Part shown: piece after piece, positions 1,335 to 27,783 of the stretch
Numbering within the stretch: position 1 is the first letter of the stretch
Layout: the number at the start of each line of letters is the position of its first letter
From: a virus
Direction: 5' to 3' (one strand)
DNA: 40,420 bases
Virus record (IMG/VR): IMGVR_UViG_2199352025_000007
Coordinates: 1-40,420 of that record
Program-made: the position numbers and the translations under genes
Notes under the pieces: generated by a model
The model's input: the letters and a program-made list of their open reading frames with translations, nothing else
Told to the model about the DNA's origin: nothing
Databases searched by the model: none

Positions 1335-1358
1335 AGGTGTACAAATCCGTACAACTAC
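1335..1358 (+). promoter_or_regulatory. Dispersed palindromic operator-like site, copy 1
   Basis: Core TGTAC-N6-GTACA (1338-1353) with left flank AGG and right flank ACTAC. One of six copies in the window with the same 16-bp core geometry. It overlaps the stop codon of the 1355-1762 gene and lies just upstream of the promoter at 1294-1322. Confidence 0.75.
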
Positions 1359-1762
1359 TCAACTAGCTTAAGAATGGTAGCGAGCTCTAGCTTTGCCTGA
1401 ACCACGTGAGCCCTGGCCTGCTTCTGCATCTCCTCATCTACGAAATCAGTGTGGAAGATCGCCTGCTCCAGGTGAGATAGAATCCGGACTCGCTCCTCTG
1501 GCTCGAACTTGCTGAAGTTCACAGTGAGAGCCAACGAGAGCTTAAAGATCTCTTCGGAGACTCTGGTAGTTTCGAGAATGGATTCCCTAGCGAGACGATT
1601 CGCTTTGTACGACCCCCGCTGATCGTTAGCAGCCACGTTAAGCTCTGCCAAGGTGCCCGTCAGAGACGTTAGGTCGTCGGCCGTCTCAAGTTTATTCTTG
1701 ACCTGCCGAAACGCAGATAGAACATTGCGCTTCGATTGAGCAATACGACTAATGCCTGCCAT
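1355..1762 (-). CDS. Hypothetical helical protein, 135 aa
   Basis: An almost wholly alpha-helical product with no recognised domain; heptad-like patterns run through LLETADDLTSL-type segments, and Ala/Glu/Leu are abundant. ATG at 1762 is preferred over a TTG at 1780 because AAAGGA lies six bases before it. It starts 12 bases after the stop of the small membrane peptide 1774-1878, so the two are one transcription and translation unit. The end overlaps the palindrome at 1335-1358. Oligomerisation through coiled coil is plausible; function unknown. Confidence 0.75.
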   Translation of the reverse strand: MAGISRIAQSKRNVLSAFRQVKNKLETADDLTSLTGTLAELNVAANDQRGSYKANRLARESILETTRVSEEIFKLSLALTVNFSKFEPEERVRILSHLEQAIFHTDFVDEEMQKQARAHVVQAKLELATILKLVE

Positions 1763-1773
1763 CTTAAATCCTT

Positions 1774-1878
1774 TCACCAATACTTAATGACGAAGTGAGC
1801 GGCTACGTAGGTAATAGCGAGAAACACTATAGCTACGATGCCGAGCAGAACCAGGGCAAATGCATTCTCCGCTTTCAT
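1774..1878 (-). CDS. Single-pass membrane miniprotein, 34 aa
   Basis: A short ORF with a charged start (MKAEN) followed by one hydrophobic segment, FALVLLGIVAIVFLAITYV, and a short basic tail ending in KYW. GGGGAGGA lies three bases before the ATG. The ATG overlaps the TGA of the upstream gene (ATGA), which argues for real translation. One of four such membrane miniproteins in the leftward arm. Possible roles include membrane-active early proteins or superinfection exclusion; the sequence does not decide. Confidence 0.7.
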   Translation of the reverse strand: MKAENAFALVLLGIVAIVFLAITYVAAHFVIKYW

Positions 1879-2114
1879 CAGTCCTCCCCGTGGTCTGTGA
1901 TCTCATGCACTGCAAGCCACCTCCAGCGTTGAGTGCCTCTCAACTCATGAGGAGGCGTGACGCTACACACTGGGCAGCAGATGCTAAGCCCCCAGTAGCG
2001 ACCTGCGCGACGACTTGTGTAGTAGCTCTGCCACCCGTGAGGTAAGAGCGGCTGCAGATACGGAAACGCCGTTAGCGTAGACTTGTAGCCACGTTTCACA
2101 GTGGCTGAGCGCAT
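1878..2114 (-). CDS. Hypothetical protein with CPVC motif, 78 aa
   Basis: ATG at 2114 has AAAGGA nine bases upstream; the frame extends further but without a ribosome binding site. The product is rich in Tyr, Trp and Arg and carries a CCPVC cysteine cluster near residue 46, which may bind metal. Its stop overlaps the next start (ATGA), supporting it. It overlaps the 3' part of the 1984-2268 gene by 131 bases in another frame on the same strand, unusually long for this phage, so one of the two may be spurious. The coupling at the 3' end and the ribosome binding site favour this being real. Confidence 0.55.
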   Translation of the reverse strand: MRSATVKRGYKSTLTAFPYLQPLLPHGWQSYYTSRRAGRYWGLSICCPVCSVTPPHELRGTQRWRWLAVHEITDHGED

Positions 2115-2268
2115 AGACGACGATCCTTTCATCGACTTCTGGCGCTTCGTGGCGCGTGTATGGCCTTTTCCCGTTCTTTTTGGCAAGCGCTTTCCTCCCC
2201 TTTCGAGCAATGAGAGCCATCCGACGACGACCCTCTGGTGTCTGAGTCCAGTGGAGCTTCTTATCCAT
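1984..2268 (-). CDS. Small basic putative DNA-binding protein, 94 aa
   Basis: GGAGGA sits seven bases before the ATG, and the ATG overlaps the TAA of the upstream membrane peptide gene. The N-terminal half is strongly basic (RRRMALIARKGRKALAKKNG, about 14-33) after a WTQTPEGRRR motif. The C-terminal part (YANGVSVSAAALTSRVAELL) looks like a helix-turn-helix-type helical pair. TPEGR-type basic starts are common in small phage DNA-binding proteins. The family is not recognised. The 3' 131 bases are shared with the 1878-2114 frame. Confidence 0.65.
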   Translation of the reverse strand: MDKKLHWTQTPEGRRRMALIARKGRKALAKKNGKRPYTRHEAPEVDERIVVYALSHCETWLQVYANGVSVSAAALTSRVAELLHKSSRRSLLGA

Positions 2269-2360
2269 TAGCTCTTCCTCCAGTCATCAAAGAACTTCCA
2301 TACTCCGTAGATAAACAGAACCGTGCCTATGCCGAAGCAGATGCCCAGAAAAAGGGTCAT
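2268..2360 (-). CDS. Single-pass membrane miniprotein, 30 aa
   Basis: MTLFLGICFGIGTVLFIYGV forms one transmembrane helix, followed by a charged tail (KFFDDWRKS). GAGGGA lies six bases before the ATG. The stop overlaps the next ATG, so it is translationally coupled to the basic protein 1984-2268. Function unknown. Confidence 0.65.
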   Translation of the reverse strand: MTLFLGICFGIGTVLFIYGVWKFFDDWRKS

Positions 2361-2362
2361 GG

Positions 2363-2518
2363 CTAATCCCTCACTAGAAGGACGAGTGGACCACCAGTGT
2401 CGGAGTTCACGTAGTCAATGTCATACGTGTCTTCGTCCTTTGCGAAGGCGATGTTGTCATTGCCTCGCTTCCTGTCGATGAGGCGTGAAAGCTCGGTGTG
2501 AAGTTCGTTGACTGTCAT
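2363..2518 (-). CDS. Hypothetical protein, 51 aa
   Basis: GGAG nine bases before the ATG and an ATGA overlap with the upstream membrane miniprotein support this gene. The product is soluble and acidic, with a helical start (MTVNELHTELSRLIDRKRG) and a C-terminal beta-like segment (GGPLVLLVRD). No family is recognised. Confidence 0.62.
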   Translation of the reverse strand: MTVNELHTELSRLIDRKRGNDNIAFAKDEDTYDIDYVNSDTGGPLVLLVRD

Positions 2519-2598
2519 CTGATTAGGCTCCAGATTGTGATGACTACTGCGATGCCTGCGACGATGCGAGCGATCCTGCGCTTAAGTTCGTAGGTCAT
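2515..2598 (-). CDS. Single-pass membrane miniprotein, 27 aa
   Basis: A basic N-terminus (MTYELKRRIAR) precedes one hydrophobic helix (IVAGIAVVITIWSLI), which by the positive-inside rule puts the N-terminus in the cytoplasm. GGAG lies eight bases before the ATG, and the stop overlaps the next start (ATGA). It starts three bases after the stop of the 2602-3024 gene. Function unknown. Confidence 0.6.
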   Translation of the reverse strand: MTYELKRRIARIVAGIAVVITIWSLIR

Positions 2599-2601
2599 GG
2601 T

Positions 2602-3024
2602 TCACTCTCCGAAAGGAGGTTCTTCCTGGTCCGACCAGTAGCCATGAAGTAGGCCATCGTAGTATGGGGCCAGAAGGGTGATGAGATCTTCTTCCAGCTG
2701 CGTGCGCCAGGTCCGACCTCTCTCGTCGGCCGATTCCTTGTCGTCCAGATATTCCTTGATCCACGGAGAGAACGATACGATCACTTCGTCCTCCCAGATG
2801 CCTACTGAACGGTCGCCAGAGGTGACGATAGTGAGCACGATCTGCTGCTCCTCACCAGCCAGTGGCAAGATACGTTTCATGGCCTCCTTGAACTGCGGAA
2901 AGTCTTCACCGAGCAGTTCCATGGCTTGATGGAGCCTAGTGCCCTTGTCAAGCGCGAACTTGTCAGGCGGTTGAGGGCAGATTGAGCCCACGATGATCTT
3001 CTTGCTCGGGTCTTTAGTTGACAT
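2602..3024 (-). CDS. Hypothetical protein, 140 aa
   Basis: ATG at 3024 has GAGGAG ten bases upstream; an ATG 18 bases further up has none. The product is acidic, with a predicted alpha/beta core (EEQQIVLTIVTSGDRSVGIW and the following strand VIVSFSPW) and helical flanks. No domain is recognised. It overlaps the start of the upstream gene's 3' end by 11 bases, so it belongs to the unit driven by the 3365-3393 promoter. Confidence 0.75.
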   Translation of the reverse strand: MSTKDPSKKIIVGSICPQPPDKFALDKGTRLHQAMELLGEDFPQFKEAMKRILPLAGEEQQIVLTIVTSGDRSVGIWEDEVIVSFSPWIKEYLDDKESADERGRTWRTQLEEDLITLLAPYYDGLLHGYWSDQEEPPFGE

Positions 3025-3334
3025 GTTCGGGTGGCTCCTCATCGAAGGTGATTACCTCGAAACCCAGCTCTTCACAGATCTGGGCCAACTCGTTGAAGTC
3101 GACAGGCTTGTTCAAGCGATTCAGCTCTTCGTTGAGCTTGCGGTGTGCGTCCTGAATTGCCTCAGGTTTGGGATCAGTTCCACCAATAGTGATCCCTAGC
3201 AAGTGGCCAGTCAGGCCATCATGCTCTACGTTCACCTCAATGTCTACGAGGCAACAGTGCAGGTCGCTCCAAGTCTTTACTTCGGCGTCTTGTGGGACCC
3301 TTGACAGGATCTCCACGAGGTGAGAGACTCTCAT
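3014..3334 (-). CDS. Hypothetical protein, 106 aa
   Basis: The frame is open up to 3373 but that would include the promoter -10, so ATG at 3334 is chosen; GGAG lies nine bases before it. The N-terminus MRVSHLVEILSRVPQDAEV matches the start of small phage proteins that begin with a 'sel.. L...p.da.v' pattern followed by a beta-sheet (LVDIEVNVEHDG...ITIGG). The C-terminus is helical and acidic. Function unknown. It is the first gene after the promoter at 3365-3393. Confidence 0.75.
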   Translation of the reverse strand: MRVSHLVEILSRVPQDAEVKTWSDLHCCLVDIEVNVEHDGLTGHLLGITIGGTDPKPEAIQDAHRKLNEELNRLNKPVDFNELAQICEELGFEVITFDEEPPEHVN

Positions 3335-3364
3335 GACTCGCGGCTCCAAAAAATGGGATGTAAC

Positions 3365-3393
3365 AATATACAATGTGTGGGGCTACTCGTCAA
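3365..3393 (-). promoter_or_regulatory. Sigma70-type promoter, leftward
   Basis: Minus strand: -35 TTGACG (3388-3393), 17-base spacer, -10 TATATT (3365-3370). It lacks the TCTTGG extension of the strongest promoters. The -35 lies in the end of the 3383-3529 gene. It serves the 3014-3334 gene and those following. Confidence 0.75.
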
Positions 3394-3529
3394 TATGAGA
3401 ACATAGCCGCTCATACTCCTTTGTCTTATCTATAACGTAAGGATGATCTATTGGGAAGTTGACTATACACGCCATAAGTAGATCCTTGCAGAGACGATTC
3501 AGCTCTGCGATCTTCTCATTCGCAGTCAT
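3383..3529 (-). CDS. Hypothetical helical protein, 48 aa
   Basis: The ATG at 3529 overlaps the TGA of the HTH gene (ATGA) and is preceded by GGAGG. The product is a short helical protein (MTANEKIAELNRLCKDLLMA) with two further Cys/His residues near the C-terminus. No family recognised. Its 3' end carries the -35 of the next promoter. Confidence 0.62.
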   Translation of the reverse strand: MTANEKIAELNRLCKDLLMACIVNFPIDHPYVIDKTKEYERLCSHIDE

Positions 3530-4071
3530 ACATCCTCCTGAGCTTGAGTCGAGTTGGGCACTTCCCAGATGCTTGAGCCTTCGTCTGGCCAAATAGACTT
3601 CGCTAAGTCAAGAATAGAAATGCCCTCTGGAAGATCGTTCACGATGTTCTTAAACTTGTCGTGCATCTCTGAGACCTGCTCGAAGGCCACGTGGTTTCTA
3701 AGTCTTAAGGCTTGACGATTGTCAGGTGGAAGAATACGCTCTACTGAGCGCATAAGTGTTTGACGGCTGACGCCAAAAATGCTACCCAACTGCCCCCATG
3801 AGGCACCGTTGATCCATGCTGCTGCAAGGAAGATAGAGCGGCTCATGTTGGGTGGAATCTTGTTGGTCGTAGTCTTGACTAGAGAGAACACGCGACTCTT
3901 AATTGCATCTTCTACCAAGAGTAGAATATCCTCCTGGGCTTCACGATCGAGGTCTGGGCGGTTCTTCTGAATCAAGAGAAGAGCCGCAGGGAGACTAGGC
4001 ATCCTACGAAATGCTGTAACCTCCGTCATAGTCAGCACGGCTCTAGTTGACTCTTTGAGTACGTAGGTCAT
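3526..4071 (-). CDS. Putative HTH DNA-binding protein, 181 aa
   Basis: The middle of the protein reads WINGASWGQLGSIFGVSRQT and then LMRSVERIL (about 92-121), which fits a sigma-factor/resolvase-type helix-turn-helix: 'W..lg..fGvsrqtl.r.v..il'. The flanking parts are helical, with no catalytic motif. It could be a transcriptional regulator and is the best visible candidate in the leftward arm to bind the repeated palindromes or the promoter extensions, but nothing in the sequence proves this. ATG at 4071 overlaps the upstream TGA (ATGA) and is preferred over a GTG 15 bases further up without a ribosome binding site. The stop overlaps the following start. Confidence 0.7.
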   Translation of the reverse strand: MTYVLKESTRAVLTMTEVTAFRRMPSLPAALLLIQKNRPDLDREAQEDILLLVEDAIKSRVFSLVKTTTNKIPPNMSRSIFLAAAWINGASWGQLGSIFGVSRQTLMRSVERILPPDNRQALRLRNHVAFEQVSEMHDKFKNIVNDLPEGISILDLAKSIWPDEGSSIWEVPNSTQAQEDV

Positions 4072-4193
4072 TTGCGCTGTATCCACTTGAGAAGGGTGTA
4101 GGCTCCACCTACGATGTAGTGGATGGACCAGAAAAACATAATAGGAGTAAGAAACAACACTACCCCTAGACTAATGGCTTTGCAGGGAGTCAT
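4068..4193 (-). CDS. Membrane miniprotein, 41 aa
   Basis: Start MTPCKAISLGVVLFLTPIMF followed by FWSIHYIVGG and a basic end (KWIQRK): one long hydrophobic helix with the basic tail presumably cytoplasmic. Both ends overlap neighbours by ATGA, which is good support for translation; the ribosome binding site is weak (GAGAGG). Function unknown. Confidence 0.6.
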   Translation of the reverse strand: MTPCKAISLGVVLFLTPIMFFWSIHYIVGGAYTLLKWIQRK

Positions 4194-4393
4194 AGAAGTG
4201 GCCTCTCATTAGCAAGAGAGATCATCCTGTCTCCTGCTGCGATGTTCTTCTGACAGTCAGTCAGACACTCAGTGCACATCTCAACGTCATGATCTACCAC
4301 GGTGTCAGGACCATCTGGATGGAAGGTCCGATCTACTAACGTAGTTGCTGGGCGGAGAGTACACACCTCACACATTACTTCTCGTGAGGTCAT
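4190..4393 (-). CDS. Zinc-ribbon miniprotein, 67 aa
   Basis: Two cysteine knuckles, CEVC (C8/C11) and CTEC (C41/C44), flank a central DRTFHPDGPDTVVDHDVE segment, the spacing of a treble-clef or zinc-ribbon fold. GGAAGG lies upstream of the ATG; the start overlaps the upstream TGA. Such proteins commonly bind nucleic acid or host proteins; no closer family is recognised. Confidence 0.68.
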   Translation of the reverse strand: MTSREVMCEVCTLRPATTLVDRTFHPDGPDTVVDHDVEMCTECLTDCQKNIAAGDRMISLANERPLL

Positions 4394-4545
4394 GGCTCCA
4401 CCGACCTTCCGTTCTTCTCCTCATCGAGATAGCAGATGATGTAGTCGATGAGAAGGAGAAGCCTGCCTTTACTGAATTTCTTGTCAGGGTTCGCTTCGTC
4501 CTCGCGTGCCCAGAGGAGTTCCTGTTTGAGATCGTCGATAGTCAT
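4390..4545 (-). CDS. Hypothetical helical protein, 51 aa
   Basis: A helical protein with an acidic start (MTIDDLKQELLWAREDEANP), a basic turn (KKFSKGR), a hydrophobic helix (LLLLIDYIICYLDEE) and a polar tail. AAAGG stands before the ATG and both ends show ATGA overlaps with neighbours. No family recognised. Confidence 0.62.
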   Translation of the reverse strand: MTIDDLKQELLWAREDEANPDKKFSKGRLLLLIDYIICYLDEEKNGRSVEP

Positions 4546-4724
4546 GATGCCTGCCTTTGTGAGTAGCCACAGAACATGGTGAGAAAGATCTCGATTGCGT
4601 CGCTTCTACGTCCCTCAATGAAGAGCACATCCTCCATGATGTACTCATCTTCGTCTTGAAAAGGTGAATCCACTCGGCGCCAGTTAGGCCTGGCAAAGGT
4701 GTTGTACTTAAAATAGATAGGCAT
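4542..4724 (-). CDS. Hypothetical protein, 60 aa
   Basis: The ATG at 4724 follows the stop of the acidic protein gene by one base; the ribosome binding site is weak, so it is probably coupled. The stop overlaps the next start (ATGA). Residues such as MPIYFKYNTFARPNWRR at the start and a mixed alpha/beta remainder give no family hint. Confidence 0.6.
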   Translation of the reverse strand: MPIYFKYNTFARPNWRRVDSPFQDEDEYIMEDVLFIEGRRSDAIEIFLTMFCGYSQRQAS

Positions 4725-4725
4725 A

Positions 4726-4947
4726 CTAATAACCCATCCAGTCGTTGAATGAGTCGATCCCGTTCAGCATCCCCTCCTCGCGAGCGATCTCCTGACGCCA
4801 GTCTTCATCGGCTTCGAGATTGGGCTCATCCAACTGATCCCCGTCGTCTCGATCGTATTCCTCGTCGAGCTCCTCCTCAGTTGGATCCTTCTCCAACGGC
4901 TCCATGTCCTCCTCGAAGACACTAGGATCATCCTTGGGATCGAACAT
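4726..4947 (-). CDS. Very acidic protein, 73 aa
   Basis: Roughly 31 of 73 residues are Asp or Glu, with only about six basic residues, giving a strongly negative product. It is the first gene after the hairpin and palindrome region 4973-5047 and has the best ribosome binding site of the arm (AAGGAGGT, about six bases before the ATG). Small, abundant and very acidic early proteins in phages (for example Ocr of T7) mimic DNA to block restriction or other DNA-binding host systems. That role is only a possibility; the sequence shows charge and position, not homology. It could equally be a protein that binds basic partners. Confidence 0.78.
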   Translation of the reverse strand: MFDPKDDPSVFEEDMEPLEKDPTEEELDEEYDRDDGDQLDEPNLEADEDWRQEIAREEGMLNGIDSFNDWMGY

Positions 4948-4972
4948 ACTACCTCCTTGTGGTGAGGTGTAC

Positions 4973-4985
4973 GCCGCGAAGCGGC
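4973..4985 (-). repeat. GC-rich hairpin next to the palindrome
   Basis: GCCGC, a three-base loop and GCGGC form a five-pair GC stem directly abutting the palindrome at 4986-5009. The same composite (hairpin, then AGG and the palindrome) occurs at 8264-8301. In the leftward mRNA it falls in the leader of the acidic protein gene. Confidence 0.55.
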
Positions 4986-5009
4986 AGGTGTACAATTTCG
5001 TACAACTAC
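4986..5009 (+). promoter_or_regulatory. Dispersed palindromic operator-like site, copy 2
   Basis: Core TGTAC-N6-GTACA (4989-5004) with flanks AGG and ACTAC as in the other copies. It lies 42 bases upstream of the ATG of the acidic protein gene. A further half-site, GGTGTAC, lies at 4966-4972. Confidence 0.75.
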
Positions 5010-5047
5010 GGTGGAGGGCAAAACATAGTAGAGTTCTACCCTCCACC
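5010..5047 (-). repeat. Nine-bp inverted repeat, possible termination or attenuation structure
   Basis: GGTGGAGGG (5010-5018) and CCCTCCACC (5039-5047) form a perfect nine-pair stem with a 20-base loop containing a further short self-complementary stretch (TAGA/TCTA). It lies between the stop at 5054 and the next leftward gene. There is no U tract, so a simple intrinsic terminator is doubtful; it may be an attenuator or processing site. Confidence 0.45.
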
Positions 5048-5053
5048 TCCCGG

Positions 5054-5197
5054 TTAGATCTTGAGGAAGTCCATCTCCTCCTGAGCCCAACGCTTCAGGG
5101 TCTCACGATCAGCTTCGGGCACTCGGCCCCACTCAGCGACGAACGAAGGGTACACAGGCTTGAGCTGTTCCATGAGGTACGACAGTGGCGCCTTCAT
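5054..5197 (-). CDS. Hypothetical helical protein, 47 aa
   Basis: GGAGGA stands just before the ATG and the ATG overlaps the upstream TGA (ATGA). The product is helical and amphipathic (MKAPLSYLMEQLKPVYPSFV, then AEWGRVPEADRETLKRW). No family recognised. It is the last gene before the inverted repeat 5010-5047. Confidence 0.65.
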   Translation of the reverse strand: MKAPLSYLMEQLKPVYPSFVAEWGRVPEADRETLKRWAQEEMDFLKI

Positions 5198-5493
5198 ACG
5201 TCCTCCTTGGTGGGTTGAACTGCGGGTGGCCTAACGGCCATGCCCTTGGACCTGCGAACCACCGCCTCGCTGAGAGTCTCAGGTCGATCCTCACGAGGGT
5301 ACGTCACTTCGATGCTGACTGGACGTCTCGCCGTCAAGTTGTACTCCTCGAACCACTTAGCCACGTCTGAGTTGGCTACGTCGAAGGCTGCACCGAGTAT
5401 AGAGATATCACGACGGGTAACCTTCGCGTTCTCTGCGGCCACACGCTTCAATCCAGCACCCATGTTGTACTGCTTGCGAGTTTTAGGAGGCAT
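5194..5493 (-). CDS. Hypothetical protein, 99 aa
   Basis: ATG at 5493 is the first plausible start after the previous gene's stop, although no clear ribosome binding site is visible; the frame is open up to 5547. The N-terminus is basic (MPPKTRKQYNMGAGLKR). The middle (RRDISILGAAFDVANSDVAKWFEEY) looks like a helical DNA-binding region in which a helix-turn-helix is possible. The C-terminus carries the EVTYPREDRPETLSEAV segment. Function unknown; the stop overlaps the next start. Confidence 0.65.
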   Translation of the reverse strand: MPPKTRKQYNMGAGLKRVAAENAKVTRRDISILGAAFDVANSDVAKWFEEYNLTARRPVSIEVTYPREDRPETLSEAVVRRSKGMAVRPPAVQPTKEDV

Positions 5494-5507
5494 GAACAGG
5501 TGGCGTG

Positions 5508-5663
5508 CTATCGCACGTCCCTCCAGAAGCCAGCGTCTGCATCCCATTTGAGCTTACCCTGCTTGGCAAGCTCAATGATCTCGGAGCGTGTGAGGAACAG
5601 ATCTGTCTGCCTGTTGTCTGGATGCTTCACCACACGAATCAACAGGCGCGTCTTCTCAGGCAT
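5508..5663 (-). CDS. Hypothetical protein, 51 aa
   Basis: GGAG five bases before ATG 5663 fixes the start. The product has a basic beta-like start (EKTRLLIRVVKHPDNRQ), a helix typical of short phage 'sEI.eLakqGklk' proteins (RSEIIELAKQGKL), and WDADAGFWRDVR at the end. No family recognised. Confidence 0.65.
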   Translation of the reverse strand: MPEKTRLLIRVVKHPDNRQTDLFLTRSEIIELAKQGKLKWDADAGFWRDVR

Positions 5664-5664
5664 A

Positions 5665-5868
5665 CTAGCTCCTACGCCGTAGCGTGGTCTCCTGCGTTTT
5701 GAGTGGACTGAGGTCACCGAGTCTGAAGCGTCGAGCGATTGACTCACCATCAAGGAGAACAATCATCTCCATGCGGGTGTACTTCCCTTCCACTGTGCCA
5801 GGCACGATCTTGCCGAGGTGGTTGGCACCTACGCGATCTCCTGGTCTGAATACGAGTTGTCCGCTCAT
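5665..5868 (-). CDS. Hypothetical small beta-barrel-like protein, 67 aa
   Basis: The sequence FRPGDRVGANHLGKIVPGTV followed by a strand rich in Val/Ile and RRFRLGDLSPL resembles an SH3- or KOW-like small barrel ('pGdrV... G.V.g'). Many phage proteins of this shape bind nucleic acid or act as adaptors; no specific role is assigned. The ATG overlaps the upstream TGA and is preceded by GGTGGG. Confidence 0.65.
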   Translation of the reverse strand: MSGQLVFRPGDRVGANHLGKIVPGTVEGKYTRMEMIVLLDGESIARRFRLGDLSPLKTQETTLRRRS

Positions 5869-6143
5869 CACCCACCTACTTTCTGGTCGAGGACTTGCTT
5901 CAGACTATGTGCTGACCAGCGACTGCGCCTCTCTGCTTCAACCTTCTTGGAAGGATTGAAGTACACACGAAAGCCAGTAGAGAACTCCTTCAGGGTGTTG
6001 TAGCGACGACCATGCCTGGGACCTCTGTGTCTCACGACGACCTGCCAAGCCTCACGATTGAGCCAACGCTTGATGAGGCGGAGCTTAAACCTGCCCCACA
6101 AGGTGTTGGAGAAGAAGAAATAATACTGCGGAGTTGTTTTCAT
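5868..6143 (-). CDS. Hypothetical basic protein, 91 aa
   Basis: GGAGAG stands four bases before the ATG. The product is very basic (WGRFKLRLIKRWLNREAW, RHRGPRHGRRY) with many aromatic residues, suggesting nucleic acid contact. No family recognised. It is the first gene downstream of the non-coding gap 6144-6277, where no convincing promoter was found; transcription may come from the promoter at 6778-6806 through the 6278-6724 gene. Confidence 0.7.
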   Translation of the reverse strand: MKTTPQYYFFFSNTLWGRFKLRLIKRWLNREAWQVVVRHRGPRHGRRYNTLKEFSTGFRVYFNPSKKVEAERRSRWSAHSLKQVLDQKVGG

Positions 6144-6277
6144 AGCACTCTCCTTGATTGTGGTCAAACAGGTGCCACGCTGACGCGTGTTCCTACAAAG
6201 TCTGTAGAGCGATGAAGTTGTTAGCCTTGACTAACTTAGGTTAATTCCTCCTCGCAGGCTTCACCGCCCTACATTTC

Positions 6278-6724
6278 CTATTCAAACGGGTAGTTCTTGC
6301 GCTTCGTAGGATCCATCACACCCTCGGGGATGTTGTTGCTTCGGTGCTGACCATTGAGGGTTTCGCTTTTGGTCTTCCCGGTTTTTAGGATCCGTTCTGG
6401 TGCGATTGTCTTCGGTACGATTGGAGTACTGATGGACTTGATTAACTTCGCTCTGCCACCCAACCTAAATCCACACTCGGCGCATAGGACTACGATGCGC
6501 TCAATTGTGTATTGGTGTAGGGGCAAATTAGTACGGTCTGCGTAGTAACTGCCGTCCGATGCCCGTCTCACGCGGGACTTCCCGACCTTCACCCACATGG
6601 ATTTCTCATCAACTACGGTGTCTCCGGGTAGCGGATCGGTTGTGGTCTTAAATGTCCACAGCCAGGCACCGTGAGCACGATTGGTACAATTCTTCCCGTC
6701 ACATCGTAGGACCTTCGTAGGCAT
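6278..6724 (-). CDS. Zinc-binding hypothetical protein, 148 aa
   Basis: ATG at 6724 is chosen because GGGAGG lies seven bases before it and the promoter -10 is at 6778-6783. The protein has a cysteine pair in LRCDGKNCTN near residues 8-13 and a second one in LCAECGF near 80-83. This is a two-knuckle zinc-ribbon with an inserted beta-rich region (DTVVDEKSMWVKVG). The C-terminus is Lys/Arg-rich and probably disordered. It could bind DNA or RNA; no family recognised. First gene after the promoter at 6778-6806. Confidence 0.75.
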   Translation of the reverse strand: MPTKVLRCDGKNCTNRAHGAWLWTFKTTTDPLPGDTVVDEKSMWVKVGKSRVRRASDGSYYADRTNLPLHQYTIERIVVLCAECGFRLGGRAKLIKSISTPIVPKTIAPERILKTGKTKSETLNGQHRSNNIPEGVMDPTKRKNYPFE

Positions 6725-6777
6725 TGTGGTGCCTCCCATCGTTGTGTGGTTTAGCGACCGAATCCCAGCATATAACA

Positions 6778-6806
6778 AATATAACACTTTTGTTCCAACT
6801 TGTCAA
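6778..6806 (-). promoter_or_regulatory. Sigma70-type promoter, leftward
   Basis: Minus strand: -35 TTGACA (6801-6806), 17-base spacer, -10 TATATT (6778-6783). The predicted start near 6771 leaves a leader of about 47 bases. The bases after the -35 (AGTTGG) partly match the TCTTGG extension of the other promoters. Confidence 0.85.
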
Positions 6807-7086
6807 TGGGCATGGTATGCTACCTGCCTGCTATCCGATGTTTGTGATGTAATTGCCTAGTGACTTCAATTGTTAGTACGTAGTTAATAGATTTTGTATA
6901 TACTAATTATTTTTTTTTTATTAACTAACAACTTTTTAAAGGAACACCTTTGAAAACGAACTATATCTCCTGCTTATGAACATCGGGTGGTAAGCAGGTA
7001 GCATACCATTCCTGCTGGAGGCTGAAGGTGTACTTATTTGTACACCTTAAGACCTATGAAGACTTTAGACACCGTAGGTTGTAGAT
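6807..7086. other. AT-rich non-coding region bounded by a 16-bp inverted repeat; origin or control candidate
   Basis: No gene is visible in this stretch. ATGGTATGCTACCTGC at 6812-6827 is repeated, inverted and perfect, at 6994-7009, 166 bases apart. Between them lie an AT-rich block with a run of nine T (about 6911-6919), a hairpin AAAGG/CCTTT (6938-6951) and an eight-pair stem CCTGCTTA/TAAGCAGG (6969-6998) that shares bases with the right arm. The palindrome copy at 7025-7048 follows. The structure would suit a replication origin or a regulatory switch; neither is proved. Confidence 0.6.
7025..7048. promoter_or_regulatory. Dispersed palindromic operator-like site, copy 3 (fully symmetric)
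   Basis: Nine-bp perfect arms AAGGTGTAC and GTACACCTT around TTATTT. This copy has the symmetric flank on both sides, unlike the other five, which end in ACT. Confidence 0.75.
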
Positions 7087-7119
7087 AAAAAAAGGTGTGC
7101 CTGTACTAGCGCACACCTT
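7087..7119 (-). terminator. Intrinsic terminator for the leftward 7124-7917 unit
   Basis: AAGGTGTGC (7092-7100) and GCACACCTT (7111-7119) make a nine-pair stem with a ten-base loop. Read leftward it is followed by an uninterrupted run of T (complement of A7087-7093). It begins five bases after the stop of the 7124-7339 gene. Confidence 0.88.
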
Positions 7120-7123
7120 GGTT

Positions 7124-7339
7124 CTACTCGCAGTCGTGTTTGTAGACTCTAGCAGAGCCACACTCACAGCCCTGGCCACTACCAGCAACTGCGAAGATGT
7201 TCCTCGCCCCTATGGGGCTGATGTTCTTCGTAGTGTAGGCTGCAGCCTCAGGATGCTTCTCACAACGGATCACTATGTGCTCACCATACTCATGAGCAAC
7301 ACAGATCTTCCACAGGTCTAGATCCTTGTCAGTAGCCAT
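7124..7339 (-). CDS. Hypothetical Cys-rich protein, 71 aa
   Basis: Two starts are possible: ATG 7387 without a good ribosome binding site, or ATG 7339 with GGAG eleven bases upstream; the latter is preferred. The protein has a Cys in IRCEKHPEAA and a CEC near the C-terminus plus a final HDC, so it may bind zinc. It ends directly before the intrinsic terminator and is the last gene of the short unit that starts with 7423-7917. Function unknown. Confidence 0.68.
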   Translation of the reverse strand: MATDKDLDLWKICVAHEYGEHIVIRCEKHPEAAAYTTKNISPIGARNIFAVAGSGQGCECGSARVYKHDCE

Positions 7340-7422
7340 AAAGATCAGAGCTCCAAAGCGAAGATGAGGAAGGATCGGAAGCAACATACCTGCCCGTAGG
7401 GCATTGTGTGGGGTGTGACTAA

Positions 7423-7917
7423 TTAGCTGCGATCGCGCTCATCCTGCTCCCGCTGCTCGTCCTGCTCTTCGGATCCTGCGATCCTCAAATCGGCCTCGTA
7501 CGCCTGCATATCTTCCTTGCTGCTGAACTCGGTGTCGTCGCTGGCGATGTAAATACGCTTCTCGACGATGCGCTCCACCACCTTGCGCCCACCCTTCTGT
7601 CCGAATGCTCCTCGGATGACCATGCGCTGCAACTCTCGCGTGTCCTTGCGGATCGTGTAATCATCTGCACACGCATCACGAACTACGCGCTGGTCTCTCA
7701 CACGCGGCGACGTGGTGTCTGCCGAATCCAGGAAATACCTTGGACCGAACGTCTTGTGGATCAAATCTACGTTCTCGTGCTTCATGAACGGCGCCTTGGC
7801 ACAAACCACCGTGCCCTTGTCGCCCTGCCCACCCTTCGACACCGATCCGAACACCCAACTAAATCCGTACTTCTCGGGGTGGTCGATCATGTCTTCAATG
7901 TCTATCGTCGGCAACAT
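7423..7917 (-). CDS. Hypothetical protein, 164 aa
   Basis: First gene of the leftward arm, facing the late arm across the 551-bp control region. AAAGGGG stands six bases before the ATG. The product has a compact N-terminal half (GFSWVFGSVSKGGQGDKGTV, H/F-rich) and a central charged helix. A C-terminal segment, RKVVERIVEKRIYIASDDTE, is followed by a Glu/Gln/Arg-rich helical tail. No family is recognised. Being the promoter-proximal gene of the divergent switch makes a regulatory role plausible, but no helix-turn-helix is obvious. Confidence 0.75.
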   Translation of the reverse strand: MLPTIDIEDMIDHPEKYGFSWVFGSVSKGGQGDKGTVVCAKAPFMKHENVDLIHKTFGPRYFLDSADTTSPRVRDQRVVRDACADDYTIRKDTRELQRMVIRGAFGQKGGRKVVERIVEKRIYIASDDTEFSSKEDMQAYEADLRIAGSEEQDEQREQDERDRS

Positions 7918-8137
7918 ATGTGGCCCCTTTGGGTTATCTTCGTGGGGTCACATCCCACACAATTGCCCCATCCGGGCGTCTTCACCGATGCGTGGCTCCA
8001 CCGCAACACGTTGGGTATCTGACGTTACCGCGCCGTTACCACGTGTCCACGATACCATCATCGTATGTCAATCGTTCATAATCATCAATCACCACACATC
8101 AATATATGTAAAATGTCCAATTACACAATGGCGGTAG

Positions 8138-8177
8138 ATCGAGCATGCTCGATAATCGGTCAATCTTGCTCGATAAT
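8138..8177. repeat. 16-bp palindrome with 21-bp-spaced direct repeat
   Basis: ATCGAGCATGCTCGAT (8138-8153) is a perfect palindrome. TGCTCGATAAT starts in its right half (8146-8156) and recurs at 8167-8177, exactly 21 bp, two helical turns, later. This is the pattern of a protein binding array. Confidence 0.7.
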
Positions 8178-8263
8178 GAAGCACCGGGGGGTACCCCGAA
8201 AGTTGTGGCACGAAAAATGCTGTTTACCTCTCAACAAATCGCGCAGCCGATAATCTTGTCAGG

Positions 8264-8301
8264 GCCGCTAACGCGGCAGGTGTACAAAATTGTACAACTA
8301 T
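8264..8301 (+). promoter_or_regulatory. GC hairpin plus dispersed palindrome, copy 4
   Basis: GCCGC (8264-8268), loop TAAC, GCGGC (8273-8277), followed immediately by AGG and the core TGTAC-N6-GTACA (8281-8296) and ACTA. The same composite order is found at 4973-5009. It lies about 97 bases upstream of the -35 of the late promoter. Confidence 0.75.
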
Positions 8302-8397
8302 GGCTATTCTTCCTATTCACAGACAGCGATACATATTGTAGGAACTATCTGCGCCACACATGTAATCAAGATCAGCCTGCCGAAGTCAACGCTCCTC

Positions 8398-8426
8398 TTG
8401 ACATCTTGGCCAACATGTTGTATCAT
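8398..8426 (+). promoter_or_regulatory. Sigma70-type promoter for the rightward late arm
   Basis: -35 TTGACA (8398-8403), 17-base spacer, -10 TATCAT (8421-8426). The 13 bases CTTGACATCTTGG are identical to those of two leftward promoters. The predicted start near 8433 leaves about 36 bases to the terminase small subunit gene. Confidence 0.85.
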
Positions 8427-8468
8427 ACATAAGCTCCGAGAAATATATAAACCGTCTCAAAGCATGTA

Positions 8469-9026
8469 ATGGCTAATCCTCTTGCGAACGTCAAACCTAG
8501 CCCTCGTGTACGTATGGCTGCCCGCCTATACGCCACAGGTGCGTGCAAAACCAAGAAGGAAGCCTCTGCCCTGGCAGGGCTCCATCCAAACTACTTGACT
8601 ATGCTAACCGGCCAGGCCATCGGCAGTGAACCTGTCAAGCGCCTGGTAAACGACCTCACGGAGATGCTCGACGATGAGACGGTCGCAACGTCAGTCATCA
8701 TCCACAAGCTCGGCCGCCAAGCGATCAAGCGTATATCCCAACTCATGTATTCCGATTCTGAACACATCAGCCTCAAGGCAGCCCAAGATCTCGCTGACCG
8801 TGCTCCTGACACCTCCAAGACACAGAAGGTCTCCATCGACTCGTTCACCCTCTCGGGTCAGGATGCTAAAGAGTTGGCTGCAGCGCTGGTGGAATCGGCT
8901 ACACGCAGTGCTCAGTTCGATCAGATCACTACCGAGGGTCTCATCGAGGTGAAGGACATTGAGAACCTCCTCGCTGAGACAATCGAGGCCTCGCCAGCGT
9001 CCGATGAGCGACCTGTCGAGGGTTGA
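8469..9026 (+). CDS. terS: Terminase small subunit
   Basis: A 185-residue protein directly before the large terminase gene, with the expected size. The N-terminal part (RLYATGACKTKKEASALAGL, then HPNYLTMLTG) fits the helix-turn-helix DNA-recognition domain of small terminases. The middle (ISQLMYSDSEHISLKAAQDL) is the helical oligomerisation region, and the acidic C-terminus (VKDIENLLAETIEA) would contact the large subunit. It recognises the phage DNA and delivers it to the large subunit for packaging. The start is the ATG at 8469; the ribosome binding site is weak. First gene of the late transcript from the promoter 8398-8426. The call rests on position, size and fold pattern. Confidence 0.85.
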   Translation: MANPLANVKPSPRVRMAARLYATGACKTKKEASALAGLHPNYLTMLTGQAIGSEPVKRLVNDLTEMLDDETVATSVIIHKLGRQAIKRISQLMYSDSEHISLKAAQDLADRAPDTSKTQKVSIDSFTLSGQDAKELAAALVESATRSAQFDQITTEGLIEVKDIENLLAETIEASPASDERPVEG

Positions 9027-10789: not shown

Positions 10790-10796
10790 GGTGGGT

Positions 10797-10928: not shown

Positions 10929-10948
10929 TTGTACAGATTTGTACATCT
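10925..10948 (-). promoter_or_regulatory. Dispersed palindromic operator-like site, copy 5
   Basis: Core TGTAC-N6-GTACA (10930-10945). Read on the minus strand its flanks match the other copies (AGA before, ACTAC after). It sits exactly in the 33-base gap between two late genes. Confidence 0.72.
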
Positions 10949-10961
10949 GACCGGGGGTCAT

Positions 10962-11144: not shown

Positions 11145-11171
11145 TTCAACCAAGTAGGAAGGAGCTGACGA

Positions 11172-11513: not shown

Positions 11514-11516
11514 TCC

Positions 11517-20662: not shown

Positions 20663-21381
20663 CCATTACTGGAACTAATGGCGGACAGAGCTCTGATACG
20701 TCTAACGTGGCGTCCTATGGGCCAGTAGGGAGTTCTGCGGTTCAAGCGGGCGATCTAGTTACTGTTGCTCTGCTCTCGACTAAGGGCTCCTCACCCGATC
20801 TGGCGACACCTTCGTGCTCAAGTGCTGGATCGCCAGTCTTTAGCCTGCGAGGAGATCTCCTATTTGGTTCGATTGCTAGCCCAATCAAGCGGCTTTCGCT
20901 CTGGACGATGGTGCCAACTCTTAGTGAGACTATTACTTTCTCATTTGACTTTGGTGGAAACGTACAGACTGGCATCATGTGGGCTATGCGCCGCTATCGT
21001 GGAGGTGTGGGAAGCACGATCTCTGTGCGTGGTGCCGCGGCAACCAATAGAGCTGATAGTGGCACTAGCATCACAGCTACGCTTGGAGCGCTAGCAGACG
21101 CTAATAGTGTAGCTTATGGAGTTCTCGGTGGTGCGCTAGCTTCTGGGACGATCTTCACGCCGGGGTCTGGCTTTACGAAACAGCAAGATCCTGGTGGTAT
21201 GTCTACGCCTTCAGCTAGAATTGCAACAGAGGATCAGACTGGCACCGACAACACAGTGGATATGTCGCATGACGCTGCTGGCAATGCTTTAGCAATAATC
21301 GCACTGGAGCTGATCGAGACGGCTGGTGGAATTGTGCTTCCACCGATTCTTCATACATACTACGAACGCATGAGGACCTGA
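20659..21381 (+). CDS. Hypothetical virion protein, 240 aa
   Basis: GTG overlaps the stop of the Ig-like fibre gene. Ser/Thr/Gly-rich, beta-type sequence with a central YRGGVGSTISVRGAAATNRA segment. The pattern 'sa.aGDl.vval.sk', seen here as SAVQAGDLVTVALLST, is found in many phage and bacterial Ig/jelly-roll surface proteins. It probably accompanies the fibre; no specific activity is visible. Confidence 0.78.
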   Translation: MTITGTNGGQSSDTSNVASYGPVGSSAVQAGDLVTVALLSTKGSSPDLATPSCSSAGSPVFSLRGDLLFGSIASPIKRLSLWTMVPTLSETITFSFDFGGNVQTGIMWAMRRYRGGVGSTISVRGAAATNRADSGTSITATLGALADANSVAYGVLGGALASGTIFTPGSGFTKQQDPGGMSTPSARIATEDQTGTDNTVDMSHDAAGNALAIIALELIETAGGIVLPPILHTYYERMRT

Positions 21382-21385
21382 CCAC

Positions 21386-22729
21386 ATGGCTAACTTTCTG
21401 AAGCAGAATACATCGAAGGTTATATCCTTCGGGCCATTCGTCAGCCCTAGTGATGGAGTTACGCTGGTAATCACATTGGTCTCGGCAATAGATCACGCCT
21501 CGACAGGTATCATGTTGTCGAAGAGTGGTGGTGCGAAGGCTGTACGTCATGCGACGGTGACGGCATCGACCTACGATGCCTACGGTGATTATCTAGTCAC
21601 ACTCGACACGACTGACACCAACACCCTTGGAAGTCTTAGGGTCTCTTTCGCAGCTGCAGCGTCTTGCTGTCCAGTCTGGCGTGACTTCATGGTCGTTCCA
21701 GCTAACGTCTACGATGCACTAGTTGGTGGTACTGATCTTCTCGATACACAGACTGCTGGTATGGACGCTAGTGTCATTACTGCGGCGGCCATTGCAACAG
21801 ACGCAATAGATGCTGATGCTATGGCAGCCAACGCTATTGATGCTGCAGTCCTCGCGACTGGTGCCATCACAGCAGCCAAGTTCGCTGCTGGTGCAATAGA
21901 CGCTGCTGCAATTGCTGACAATGCTATAGATGCTGGTGCGCTTGCTGCTGGTGCAATTACTTCTGCTAAGTTCGCAGCTGGAGCGATCAATGCTGCAGCG
22001 ATTGCGACGGATGCCGTTGATGCTGATGCCTTGTCAGCAGATGCTATAGCAGAGATTATAGCTGCCATGCTCGCTGATACCAGTTTGAGAACGAGAATGG
22101 GTGTTCTTGGAGCCGGAACTTTGGTCTCTGGCACCCTGACTGAGGTTCAACTACAGGTTGGTCAGCGAGATGGTGCACCTGGACAGATCGTTGTCTATAT
22201 TGCGTCTGGAGTGGCTAAGGGTGAGTGCAAGGTCTTGGCAACTTACGATTCTACGACTGGAATCGGAGCCCCTGCTAGCAGTGATCCCTTCACCAACGTG
22301 CCAGGAGCAGCTGGTTACGTTACCTTTATCTGCCCGACGAGTGTCGCTCTTGTGGATACCGACTTTGCTCAGAGCTACTACGACAATCTACACCAATCAT
22401 ATCCAGCTCTACAGAACAACCCCTTGCAGGCCGCGATTGCTGCAGGTGGAATCACTGGAGCTACGTTTGACGCAAGTGCTCTGGCTGCTATAAACGACCA
22501 GGTGTTGGATGTGATGAGTGTGGATCAGTTCGCAGAACTTGCGGTACTGCCTCCTGCAACTAACGTCAGTATGCTCCAAATGCTGCAACTTGTGTATCAG
22601 CTTGGACGCAACAAGTCTGATACTAGCCCAACTCAGCGCAAGCTGTACAAGAGCAACGACGTGAGTGTGCTGGGCATCGTGAACTTTAGCGACAACGGGA
22701 CTACTTTGAGTAGAGGCAAGTTCGTATAA
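21386..22729 (+). CDS. Repeat-containing fibre protein, 447 aa
   Basis: The N-terminal domain (about 1-120; TSKVISFGPFVSPSDGVTL) is the beta-domain that begins many phage fibre proteins of podoviruses. A run of about ten-residue Ala-rich repeats follows (about 125-225), with units such as AITAAKFAAGAI, AIDAAAIADNAI and AIDAGALAAGAI, probably a beta-helix or trimeric coil. The C-terminal part (AGQRDGAPGQIVVYIA region and beyond) is another beta-domain. It ends TAATG-style with the next start overlapping. Likely a side fibre. Confidence 0.85.
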   Translation: MANFLKQNTSKVISFGPFVSPSDGVTLVITLVSAIDHASTGIMLSKSGGAKAVRHATVTASTYDAYGDYLVTLDTTDTNTLGSLRVSFAAAASCCPVWRDFMVVPANVYDALVGGTDLLDTQTAGMDASVITAAAIATDAIDADAMAANAIDAAVLATGAITAAKFAAGAIDAAAIADNAIDAGALAAGAITSAKFAAGAINAAAIATDAVDADALSADAIAEIIAAMLADTSLRTRMGVLGAGTLVSGTLTEVQLQVGQRDGAPGQIVVYIASGVAKGECKVLATYDSTTGIGAPASSDPFTNVPGAAGYVTFICPTSVALVDTDFAQSYYDNLHQSYPALQNNPLQAAIAAGGITGATFDASALAAINDQVLDVMSVDQFAELAVLPPATNVSMLQMLQLVYQLGRNKSDTSPTQRKLYKSNDVSVLGIVNFSDNGTTLSRGKFV

Positions 22730-25529: not shown

Positions 25530-25532
25530 GCC

Positions 25533-25622
25533 ATGTTCCCACGCGGAAGTGTCGCCAGAGCAATGCTACTGATCGGTGTGCTCTACGTTATCAGCTTTCG
25601 TGGGCCTCTGTGTGAGGTATAA
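25533..25622 (+). CDS. Membrane miniprotein in the tail cassette, 29 aa
   Basis: GAGGA seven bases before the ATG; the ORF fills the gap between adaptor and the next gene exactly. It reads MFPRGSVARAMLLIGVLYVI then SFRGPLCEV: a basic start, one hydrophobic stretch and a short tail. It may be a real small membrane protein; it was too short for automated calling. Function unknown. Confidence 0.5.
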   Translation: MFPRGSVARAMLLIGVLYVISFRGPLCEV

Positions 25623-25627
25623 CTAAC

Positions 25628-26164
25628 ATGGCCTACTCTAATCCGTGGAACGAGACAGCGCCCTTAGGTTCGGCTGCTAGGAACACGGTAGACGATATAA
25701 TTCGGCAGCTAAAGGTCGATCTGCGGGAGCGGTTCGAGGCTACGCTGTTCGTAGATTTCAGCGCTGACCCTCTGGTGTTTAAGGCGACTAAGCACCTGAC
25801 TATTGATGGATGTGCTGGCTTCGCTGGAACGAACGCCGGATATGGTCCGCTTGGCATAACTAACTCTGTTGACAATGACGTTTACGCGAGCCTCCCGCTT
25901 CCTGTAGGAGCAATCATTAAGAGAATAGCAGTGACGGCTCTTAGGAATGGCGTTGGAGGTGCCATCACAATTGCTTTGGAGGAGAGAGACGCTACTGGGG
26001 CAGCGACAACGTTGACCTCTGTTGCGTTTAGCGCCTCTCCTGGGGTGCAAGAGGTGATTAGCGTAGATATCTCGGCACCAGTGGTGGATAAGTTTTCCTA
26101 CAGGTTGAAGTCGTTCTTGCCGGTTCCTGCTGTCATTTATTTTGCTAGAGTGGAGTATGAGTGA
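25628..26164 (+). CDS. Beta-rich virion protein, 178 aa
   Basis: N-terminal helix (TVDDIIRQLKVDLRERFE) followed by a beta-sandwich (IKRIAVTALRNGVGGAITI, then VQEVISVDISAPVVD). The layout 'MAysnpWn..APl.s...n.iDd.irqLk.dlrERf' is common in short structural proteins of podovirus tail cassettes. It lies between the adaptor and the nozzle-like gene and overlaps the latter by one base (TGATG). Probably a tail knob or fibre-base protein. Confidence 0.78.
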   Translation: MAYSNPWNETAPLGSAARNTVDDIIRQLKVDLRERFEATLFVDFSADPLVFKATKHLTIDGCAGFAGTNAGYGPLGITNSVDNDVYASLPLPVGAIIKRIAVTALRNGVGGAITIALEERDATGAATTLTSVAFSASPGVQEVISVDISAPVVDKFSYRLKSFLPVPAVIYFARVEYE

Positions 26165-27783
26165 TGGCTAAGCCTATCACTCTTCGGTCTGCGATAGGTC
26201 TCCCTCTCAGTAGCTCAACAGCTCCTGGAGTTGATCCTGTCCCGACGCCGTTCTGGGCGCCGCCGAAGGGGATGGACACCACATCTCGCTTGAGTCAGGT
26301 AGCCAACGATCATGGAGCCTTGATTAAGAATGTGAGACTACGGGACTCGACTATGTTGTCGAGGCCTGGAACAGTTCCTGTAGGCGGTGTCGCGACTTCA
26401 GGCATAGTGTCAGCAATCACGTTCATCACTTCAGACGAGACGGCCTATGTCATAAGGTTTTGTACGAATAAGGTAGAGCTTTGGAATACTACTGATTGGC
26501 AGGATTTGCCAGTTCCAGGAGGCTTGCATGGCTCAGGCACTGACCAGTTTGCTTATACAGCCTTCAACGACAATTTGATCTTCTCAAATGGCGTAGATGG
26601 TATGTATGAGTACAATCCTAAGACGGGAGCCATTGCTAAGATTGCAGGGGCTCCACCTGCAAAGCACTTGACGACATTCACTGGTCGTGTGATAGCGAGT
26701 GGAGTTACCGACGGCATTACGTTCAGGGGGAACCGCATACAGTGGTCGGTGAAGAACAACTCAAACGACTGGGCTGGGTTTGGTAGTGGATTTGAGGACT
26801 TGCTGTCCACGCCGGGAGGACACGTTGATCTAGCGAGAGGAGTCCACCCTGCTAGTGACTACGCTGCCATCGTGTTGCGAGACAATTCTGTGTGGCAGAT
26901 GAGCGAGACTGGTGATCCTGAAGCACCGTTCAGGTTCAGCAGAATCCATCCGAACCTTGGGACGCACTCGTACCACGCTGCAGCAGATGTGCCTGGTGGA
27001 GTGATCGCCTTCATGAACGACGATGTGTACCTCATCAGTGAGCAGAGTGCTCAGGCTATTGGGACCAAGATTAGGCGGTCCCTGCTAGCTGAGCCCAATC
27101 CTGAACTGTCGGTAGGTGCTTATGACCATGCAGAGAGGGAGTATGCCCTACTTACTGGGAACAGGGTCTGGCGCTACAACATGCGAGGTGATGGAGGATG
27201 GACTCAAGACGAGTACCCGATTCAGCTTGGATGGATATCTTATACCGCTAGAGGAAGAGAAGTCCTCACTATTGACTCTTCACCTGGAACTATTGATGCT
27301 GCTGGCAGCCAGTCGATCGACTCCGAGCTAGGAGACTTTAAAGCAGGTGGAATGCTCCTATCAAGCGTAGATAGGGTCTACGAAGAGGACGAAGATGCGG
27401 TTGACGATAACGGTGTTAACTCCACCCTAGATCTTCAGACTGGCCTGATCTTGTCTGCGAGCCCTCTTGAAGAGACCACGGTCCCTGAGATCCAGATTGA
27501 GTATGAGTCTGACCTCGATCAGATCCTAACGTTCCAGTATCGCAACATAGAGTTGGACCGCAATCGAGTTCTGGTCCCTGCGAGTCTCAACTGGCTGACG
27601 TATGAATCAGGTGTACAAATTAGTACAACTGGCGGATCGCCACAGACGCTTAGCGTGAACAAGACTGTGGTGGGTAAGAACCTCCAGTTCAAAGTGTTCT
27701 CAAGTACGCTAGGTAAGTTCAGGCTGCTCGCGATGATTCCAATGCTCATCGTGTCTCAGAATGCAGCTAGGGCTAGAGGATGA
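26164..27783 (+). CDS. Tail nozzle / DNA-stabilisation-like protein, 539 aa
   Basis: The start GVDPVPTPFWAPPKGMDTTS followed by 'L....A.ilkNv..rd..l..RpG...' is the hallmark of podoviral tail hub proteins (nozzle, P22 gp10/T7 gp12-like). Beta-propeller-like blades follow (AYTAFNDNLIFSNGVDGMYE, VWQMSETGDPEAPFRFS, VIAFMNDDVYLISEQSAQAI). It closes the tail and stabilises packaged DNA. Palindrome copy 6 lies inside its coding sequence. ATG at 26164 is preferred with GGAG upstream. Confidence 0.87.
   Translation: MAKPITLRSAIGLPLSSSTAPGVDPVPTPFWAPPKGMDTTSRLSQVANDHGALIKNVRLRDSTMLSRPGTVPVGGVATSGIVSAITFITSDETAYVIRFCTNKVELWNTTDWQDLPVPGGLHGSGTDQFAYTAFNDNLIFSNGVDGMYEYNPKTGAIAKIAGAPPAKHLTTFTGRVIASGVTDGITFRGNRIQWSVKNNSNDWAGFGSGFEDLLSTPGGHVDLARGVHPASDYAAIVLRDNSVWQMSETGDPEAPFRFSRIHPNLGTHSYHAAADVPGGVIAFMNDDVYLISEQSAQAIGTKIRRSLLAEPNPELSVGAYDHAEREYALLTGNRVWRYNMRGDGGWTQDEYPIQLGWISYTARGREVLTIDSSPGTIDAAGSQSIDSELGDFKAGGMLLSSVDRVYEEDEDAVDDNGVNSTLDLQTGLILSASPLEETTVPEIQIEYESDLDQILTFQYRNIELDRNRVLVPASLNWLTYESGVQISTTGGSPQTLSVNKTVVGKNLQFKVFSSTLGKFRLLAMIPMLIVSQNAARARG
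27609..27632 (+). promoter_or_regulatory. Dispersed palindromic operator-like site, copy 6 (intragenic)
   Basis: Core TGTAC-N6-GTACA (27612-27627) with AGG before and ACT after, in the coding sequence of the nozzle-like gene about 150 bases before its stop. Conservation within a gene, at the same 16-bp geometry, argues that the DNA or RNA element itself matters. Confidence 0.65.

Follow-up and report, generated by a model that had tools for sequence, protein, structure and literature searches.

What is a single perfect palindrome, repeated at six scattered places, doing in the genome of a tailed phage, and which protein reads it? The question is raised by the linear IMG/VR record IMGVR_UViG_2199352025_000007, an environmental tailed-phage contig whose whole analyzed stretch of 40,420 nucleotides is referred to here as the window. 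Comparison with related phages indicates that the palindromes are probably dispersed binding sites, resembling parS and the operators of KorB, for a phage-encoded protein in which a ParB domain and a helix-turn-helix (HTH) are fused to a DNA methyltransferase (MTase), hereafter ParB-MTase.

An initial annotation of the window had reported six copies of TGTAC-N6-GTACA with conserved flanks, and all six were recovered as exact matches to TGTACNNNNNNGTACA starting at positions 1338, 4989, 7029, 8281, 10930 and 27612, which agree with the reported coordinates once the flanks are included. That such a number is not expected by chance was borne out by 60 dinucleotide-preserving shuffles of the window, 58 of which contained no copy and two of which contained one, as compared with the six real copies. 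When any 5-N(0-16)-5 dyad was admitted, the biggest family in 40 shuffles had three copies, and a control scan of the window with the reversed pattern gave no matches. Four sites are flanked by AGG...ACT. At 7029 the flanks, AGG...CCT, are fully symmetric, and the site at 10930, taken on its minus strand, has AGA...ACT. The consensus of the window sites is a perfect 22-bp dyad with the halves AGGTGTACAAA and TTTGTACACCT, and therefore the conserved unit exceeds the 16-bp core. A position weight matrix (PWM) scan added one further, degenerate site with its core at 17425-17440 (AGATGCACAGAAAAGTACACCT). Five of the six exact sites are located at gene borders and one inside a gene, as had been described; the latter is the site at 27612, about 150 bp ahead of the stop codon of the virion open reading frame (ORF) 26161-27783.

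The window has no close phage relative in GenBank (no megablast match; capsid identity at most 35.5%), and a capsid search of genome contigs returned a single weak match, at 34%, in a Pseudomonadota metagenome-assembled genome, from which no host was assigned. The comparison rests on a clade of relatives, labeled with G numbers, that was assembled by searches with the terminase, ParB-MTase and capsid sequences, and in which dyads were counted de novo for each genome with no assumption of the window motif. Most genomes have a single dominant dyad family, and the dominant families share the geometry of the centre. PWM scans located 144 sites on 22 contigs (approximately 20 phages), each contig with its own dyad and all with the same 16/22-bp geometry. 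The GTAC half-site class is composed of the window, G011/G008, G026/G044 and G027, the GTCC class of G029, G030, G032, G033, G034, G036 and G042, and the ATTC class of G010, G028, G040 and G041, with further classes represented by one phage each (ATCA in G023, TTCC in G024, TTGA in G009, TTAC in G003 and TTGC in G043). The site set switches as a whole, because G010, the nearest near-complete relative by terminase (64%), lacks the letters of the window and has 11 dyads of its own, while G011, at 46% terminase identity, carries the window's letters. A scan of viral contigs with AGGTGTACN6GTACAACT found 19 loci with one match each, of which only that in G011 (L022) is informative; nearly all of the others were taken as chance matches because their spacers are unlike those of the window. 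Outside the clade, distant ParB-MTases occur in the GenBank phages LS06 (Desulfofustis), VS-ABTNL-3 (Vibrio) and ctMlz233, which have six, four and three dispersed dyads of their own, respectively.

Dyads of other kinds were also encountered. Alcaligenes phage vB_Af_QDWS535 (L217), whose capsid is distantly related, has 11 copies of CCTAA-NN-TTAGG, 10 of them TCCTAA-NN-TTAGGA, that are located mainly at 42000-48100 and mostly grouped in the early region; they represent a dispersed dyad of a different kind. In G058 (L236-L238), four TGCTAAG-N3-CTTAGCA dyads lie within 350 bp at 21257-21600, clustered like a plasmid centromere, and this genome encodes a ParB-HTH protein that apparently lacks the methyltransferase.

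Although the letters differ, the sites recur at homologous places. In the 11 contigs longer than 40 kb, which together hold 94 sites, only 33 sites are inside predicted genes as compared with 84 expected. The sites are separated by a mean gap of approximately 5 kb, and the gaps have a coefficient of variation of 0.48, lower (p<=0.0005 in each case) than the 0.83 obtained when sites were placed uniformly and the 1.07 obtained when they were placed at random in intergenic space; the P values in this comparison of position and spacing are optimistic because related phages were treated as independent. Spacing this regular suits coverage of the genome more than regulation at a few promoters. The same borders recur: a site is found upstream of the terminase small subunit gene (TerS) in 10/10 phages and upstream of the ParB-MTase gene in 9/10 (mean of about 1 and maximum of 6 upon rotation), 3' of the gene that follows the capsid in 8/10, 3' of the terminase large subunit gene (TerL) in 6/11, and at the 3' end of the giant tail gene in 5/9. 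A site is also found 3' of DUF669 in 8/10, but this gene adjoins the start of the ParB-MTase gene, and these are therefore partly the same sites as those upstream of the latter. Altogether, phages share 185 landmark pairs, compared with a mean of 10.8 and a maximum of 32 for rotated sites. The conservation in relatives to which the initial annotation had looked thus holds for position, but not for sequence, since the letters switch together in each genome. Computation supports the view that the sites form one co-evolving set per phage, with conserved positions, even spacing and a match to the ParB code that is described next.

Across phages, distances between the recognition helices of the ParB-MTases correlate with distances between the motifs (r=0.71, p=0.0002), and do so after removal of the distance between MTase domains (partial r=0.63); for the ParB_N domain of the same protein the partial r is 0.04. 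In all 13 relatives examined, the ParB-MTase is encoded by the genome that bears the sites. Residue 173 of ParB-family proteins has been tied to base 2 of the 16-bp site, arginine in ParB corresponding to the G of parS and glutamine in Noc to the A of the Noc-binding site (NBS) (PMC7383237). In the phage proteins we took residue 173 to be the third residue before the conserved V/I176, and for G033 this numbering is confirmed by alignment with Spo0J (gmeRshV / gksRphI). The code is consistent in 13/13 phages: R173 is found with G2 in seven (G011, G022, G027, G029, G033, G042 and G044), Q173 with A2 in four (G010, G023, G040 and G041), and P or K at 173 with T2 in two (G024 and G043). In every class the consensus has T at base 3, a feature shared with parS (TGTTTCAC) and NBS (TATTTCCC). 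For G022, a dyad of the GT-C class was expected beforehand from the helix GMERSRV; two TTGTCC dyads were then found, one of them just upstream of the ParB-MTase gene.

The architecture of the fusion is an N-terminal ParB domain of the CTPase fold, a ParB-type HTH and a C-terminal beta-class N6/N4 DNA methyltransferase. Pfam assigns ParB_N and PF01555 (E=1e-19), ParB_N scoring above the cut-off in G011, and the MTase domain has the PF01555 fold with a DPPF catalytic motif followed by an S-adenosylmethionine (AdoMet)-binding motif. The N-terminus of the G033 protein matches Bacillus subtilis Spo0J (E=3.9e-14), with the Box II/III-like motifs GFRR and EENLQR aligned. An AlphaFold2 model of the G010 protein has a mean pLDDT of 82.7 and places the HTH helices at residues 119-146, and in Foldseek the fold of the C-terminal domain is matched with probability 1.00 by CcrM, M.BceJIV, RsrI and MboIIA. 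Several beta-class methyltransferases are dimers, and the MTase domain may therefore stand in for the usual C-terminal dimerization domain of ParB.

The window contig lacks the block in which this gene would be expected. At its right end, a DUF3987/primase gene (39283-40420, minus strand) is cut by the contig end, and in relatives the genes that follow are PolA and then ParB-MTase. At the left end, a conserved early gene (127-588, minus strand), in whose family the contig end falls, marks the far side of the gap. In G023, homologues of these two end genes bracket a 7.3-kb block that encodes PolA-UDG, ParB-MTase, DUF669, an AAA ATPase and a PD-(D/E)XK nuclease, and it is this polymerase/ParB block of about 7 kb that is missing from the window. 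Repeats of 99 (identical), 123 and 127 bases at the contig ends of G023, G027 and G029, respectively, indicate that these records, 44-50 kb long, are probably complete and circular. We infer that the ParB-MTase gene of the window lineage sits in the missing block, and predict that residue 173 of its product is arginine. The DNA polymerase A at 35675-38158 of G010 (L039:15675-18158) and its homologues carry an N-terminal domain of the uracil-DNA-glycosylase (UDG) superfamily.

How might such a protein use sites of this kind? By analogy with ParB, Noc and KorB, a ParB-MTase dimer would nucleate at a dyad, close as a nucleoside triphosphate (NTP)-gated clamp and slide along the neighboring DNA. 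With sites about 5 kb apart, sliding clamps could cover the whole phage genome. Less certainly, the tethered MTase might in this way methylate, in cis, the genome that encodes it, protection from host restriction being one conceivable benefit, and the site upstream of the ParB-MTase gene might serve in autoregulation. Under this scheme, the dyads would form a grid across the whole genome onto which an NTP-gated sliding-clamp MTase loads, and the MTase would mark the phage genome as self in cis; we put this proposal forward tentatively and hold it with clearly less confidence than the identity of the sites. We found no earlier description of self-marking by a clamp MTase in the open-licence literature.

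Several observations weigh against the ParB-MTase as reader of the dyads, or against its proposed mode of action. The window contig does not contain a ParB-MTase gene of its own. On well-supported (starred) branches, residue 173 and the operator change together in one independent pair (three to four on the best tree), and an independent-contrast test of the code had too few supported branches for significance; the code is consequently a strong match to prior biochemistry with a weak independent-contrast statistic. The HTH alignment of distant ParB-MTase homologues is poor, which confines the residue 173 comparison to the clade, and no clear dyad family was found in the distant ParB-MTase phages Javan122, Mel-JY34 and G064. 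Pfam ParB_N falls below the cut-off for the G010 protein. In a 2025 survey, 17 of the 28 ParB-fold proteins tested bound no NTP (PMC12704722). Finally, promoter-like sequences are found within 300 bp downstream of 17 sites, as compared with 4.5 expected, which makes a transcriptional role possible as well.

This last point leads to the alternative that survives best, in which the ParB-MTase occupies the same sites mainly to silence or time phage genes, including its own, from operators both near and far, in the manner of a KorB-like global transcription regulator, methylation being secondary. KorB of plasmid RK2 is a ParB-type protein, a CTPase clamp, and its 16-bp OB sites are located on the replicon at varied distances from promoters, either 4-10 bp or 45 to >1000 bp upstream (PMC11790492). 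The promoter-like excess and the recurrent sites upstream of TerS and the ParB-MTase gene speak for such a regulator. However, a promoter-like sequence is missing downstream of most sites, many sites are at 3' ends or between convergent genes, and the regular spacing is unexpected for operators of particular promoters; the phage system differs from KorB-OB also in its C-terminal DNA methyltransferase and in that no integrase or ParA was found. We consider this alternative rather unlikely, though it deserves to be taken seriously.

Partition or compaction of the phage chromosome, with the dyads as parS in the ParABS sense, would account for 16-bp palindromes and a ParB protein in one genome. 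The likeness to ParB-parS and Noc-NBS indeed extends to the T at position 3, the R173-G2 and Q173-A2 code, and the ParB fold with its HTH (PMC7383237). Nevertheless, PF13614 (ParA) is absent from 11 contigs, as are PF00589 and PF00239 (integrase and resolvase), while a control for the ParA search was positive in 14 genomes; these absences argue against both partition and lysogeny immunity. The sites are also spread genome-wide instead of being clustered near an origin or a parAB operon. Partition or compaction is therefore improbable. From ParB-parS and Noc-NBS the phage system differs as well in that a methyltransferase takes the place of the usual C-terminal domain, and in the many more operator specificities held by one clade.

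Less probable again is an immunity system of the stoperator type, a parallel raised in the initial annotation. Here a temperate phage would carry the dyads as repressor targets, read by an HTH protein like that encoded at 3526-4086 (minus strand). In favor of this, the dyads are scattered and most of them are intergenic, phages are known to have dispersed repressor sites, and in cluster A mycobacteriophages the motif varies between phages together with its reader protein (PMC6550527). Stoperators, however, are asymmetric, oriented 13-bp sites, up to about 30 per genome, that are read by a lysogeny repressor (PMC6550527), whereas the phage dyads are symmetric over 22 bp, and the parallel fails on this as well as on integrase, resolvase and ParA, none of which was found in 11 contigs. 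As for the HTH protein itself, the recognition helix RQTLM is common to the window and G011, which share the motif, yet a Mantel test over 13 phages detects no covariation between its family and the motif (r=0.09, p=0.26), no homologue was detected in G010 with its 11 sites, and a viral contig search with this protein alone gave no match. The phiC31 repressor sites are conserved inverted repeats, dispersed as dyads in a phage genome, but their reader is a lysogeny repressor, unlike the ParB-MTase. For a second binder that had been named, the product of 7423-7917, G010 is the only one of the compared relatives with a recognizable homologue. TerS, which is present in relatives, was considered as a further candidate binder. 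What stands of the suggestion of a regulator site is that these are dispersed sites of a phage-encoded DNA-binding protein, as position and joint switching indicate; neither of the two proteins named for it is supported.

Perfect dyads, several of them at gene ends, could also form hairpins, but their action as RNA elements (hairpins, attenuators or terminators) or as packaging signals is most improbable: Rfam gave no match and a terminator scan of 1-12000 found none at any site, and each genome has one sequence, switched jointly between phages, with letters that follow a DNA-reading residue. A chance or compositional artefact is a negligible prospect given the shuffles, the empty control pattern and the conservation across phages.

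The individual sites of the window can be placed in this framework of probable ParB-MTase binding. The parS-like dyad at 1335-1356 (AGGTGTACAAATCCGTACAACT) is directly behind the stop codon of ORF 1355-1780 (minus strand) and about 15 bp upstream of a sigma-70-like promoter at 1322-1294 (minus strand). The dyad at 4986-5007 (AGGTGTACAATTTCGTACAACT) separates two genes of the minus strand and precedes a start near 4946 by about 40 bp, and the intergenic dyad with symmetric flanks at 7026-7047 (AGGTGTACTTATTTGTACACCT) adjoins an AT-rich stretch bounded by an inverted repeat. Upstream of TerS is the dyad at 8278-8299 (AGGTGTACAAAATTGTACAACT), with a homologous site in all 10 phages tested, and behind TerL, before the portal gene, that at 10927-10948 (AGTTGTACAGATTTGTACATCT), with a homologous site in 6/11. 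The degenerate seventh site (17422-17443) is at the 3' end of gene 16766-17422 and has homologous sites in 8/10 phages, and the dyad near the 3' end of the virion gene (27609-27630, AGGTGTACAAATTAGTACAACT) in 4/10.

Other features were noted around these sites. The inverted repeat beside dyad 7029 is imperfect, about 29 bp long (6812-6840 and 6981-7009; ATGGTATGCTACCTGC... and ...GCAGGTAGCATACCAT), and surrounds an AT-rich stretch with a T run; this could be a replication origin. Five strong sigma-70-like promoters are located at 689-661, 1322-1294, 3393-3365 and 6806-6778 on the minus strand and 8398-8426 on the plus strand; most begin TTGACA[T/A][C/G]TTGG, and three of the five have a dyad 15-225 bp upstream. 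A long stem-loop at 5000-5050 (GGTGGAGGG...CCCTCCACC) adjoins dyad 4989, and small GC hairpins (GCCGC-GCGGC) adjoin dyads 4989 and 8281. The window has HNH endonuclease genes at 686-1081 and 11517-11972, the second between the TerL and portal genes.

Phage fusions of a ParB CTPase fold with an N6/N4 MTase, the same domain architecture as that of the proposed binder, are reported to be frequent and perhaps to have an anti-defence role (PMC12704722). A ParB-methylase of Bacillus cereus is reported, in work cited in PMC5512222, to nick DNA non-specifically. We found no DNA targets or known function for the phage fusions in the survey and no report of cognate sites in the open-licence literature; what is proposed here in addition is cognate sites, with their position, spacing and code. 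The dyads thus suggest a DNA target for a widespread and unexplained kind of phage protein, and for ParB-N6/N4 MTase fusions they supply directly testable candidates for the target sites, for the code by which these are recognized and for their layout in the genome. At least eight operator specificities in one phage clade provide a natural series for the evolution of ParB/Noc specificity, and possibly orthogonal ParB-site pairs for DNA labeling. If sliding does deliver the methyltransferase, it would amount to a new mechanism by which a virus marks its genome.

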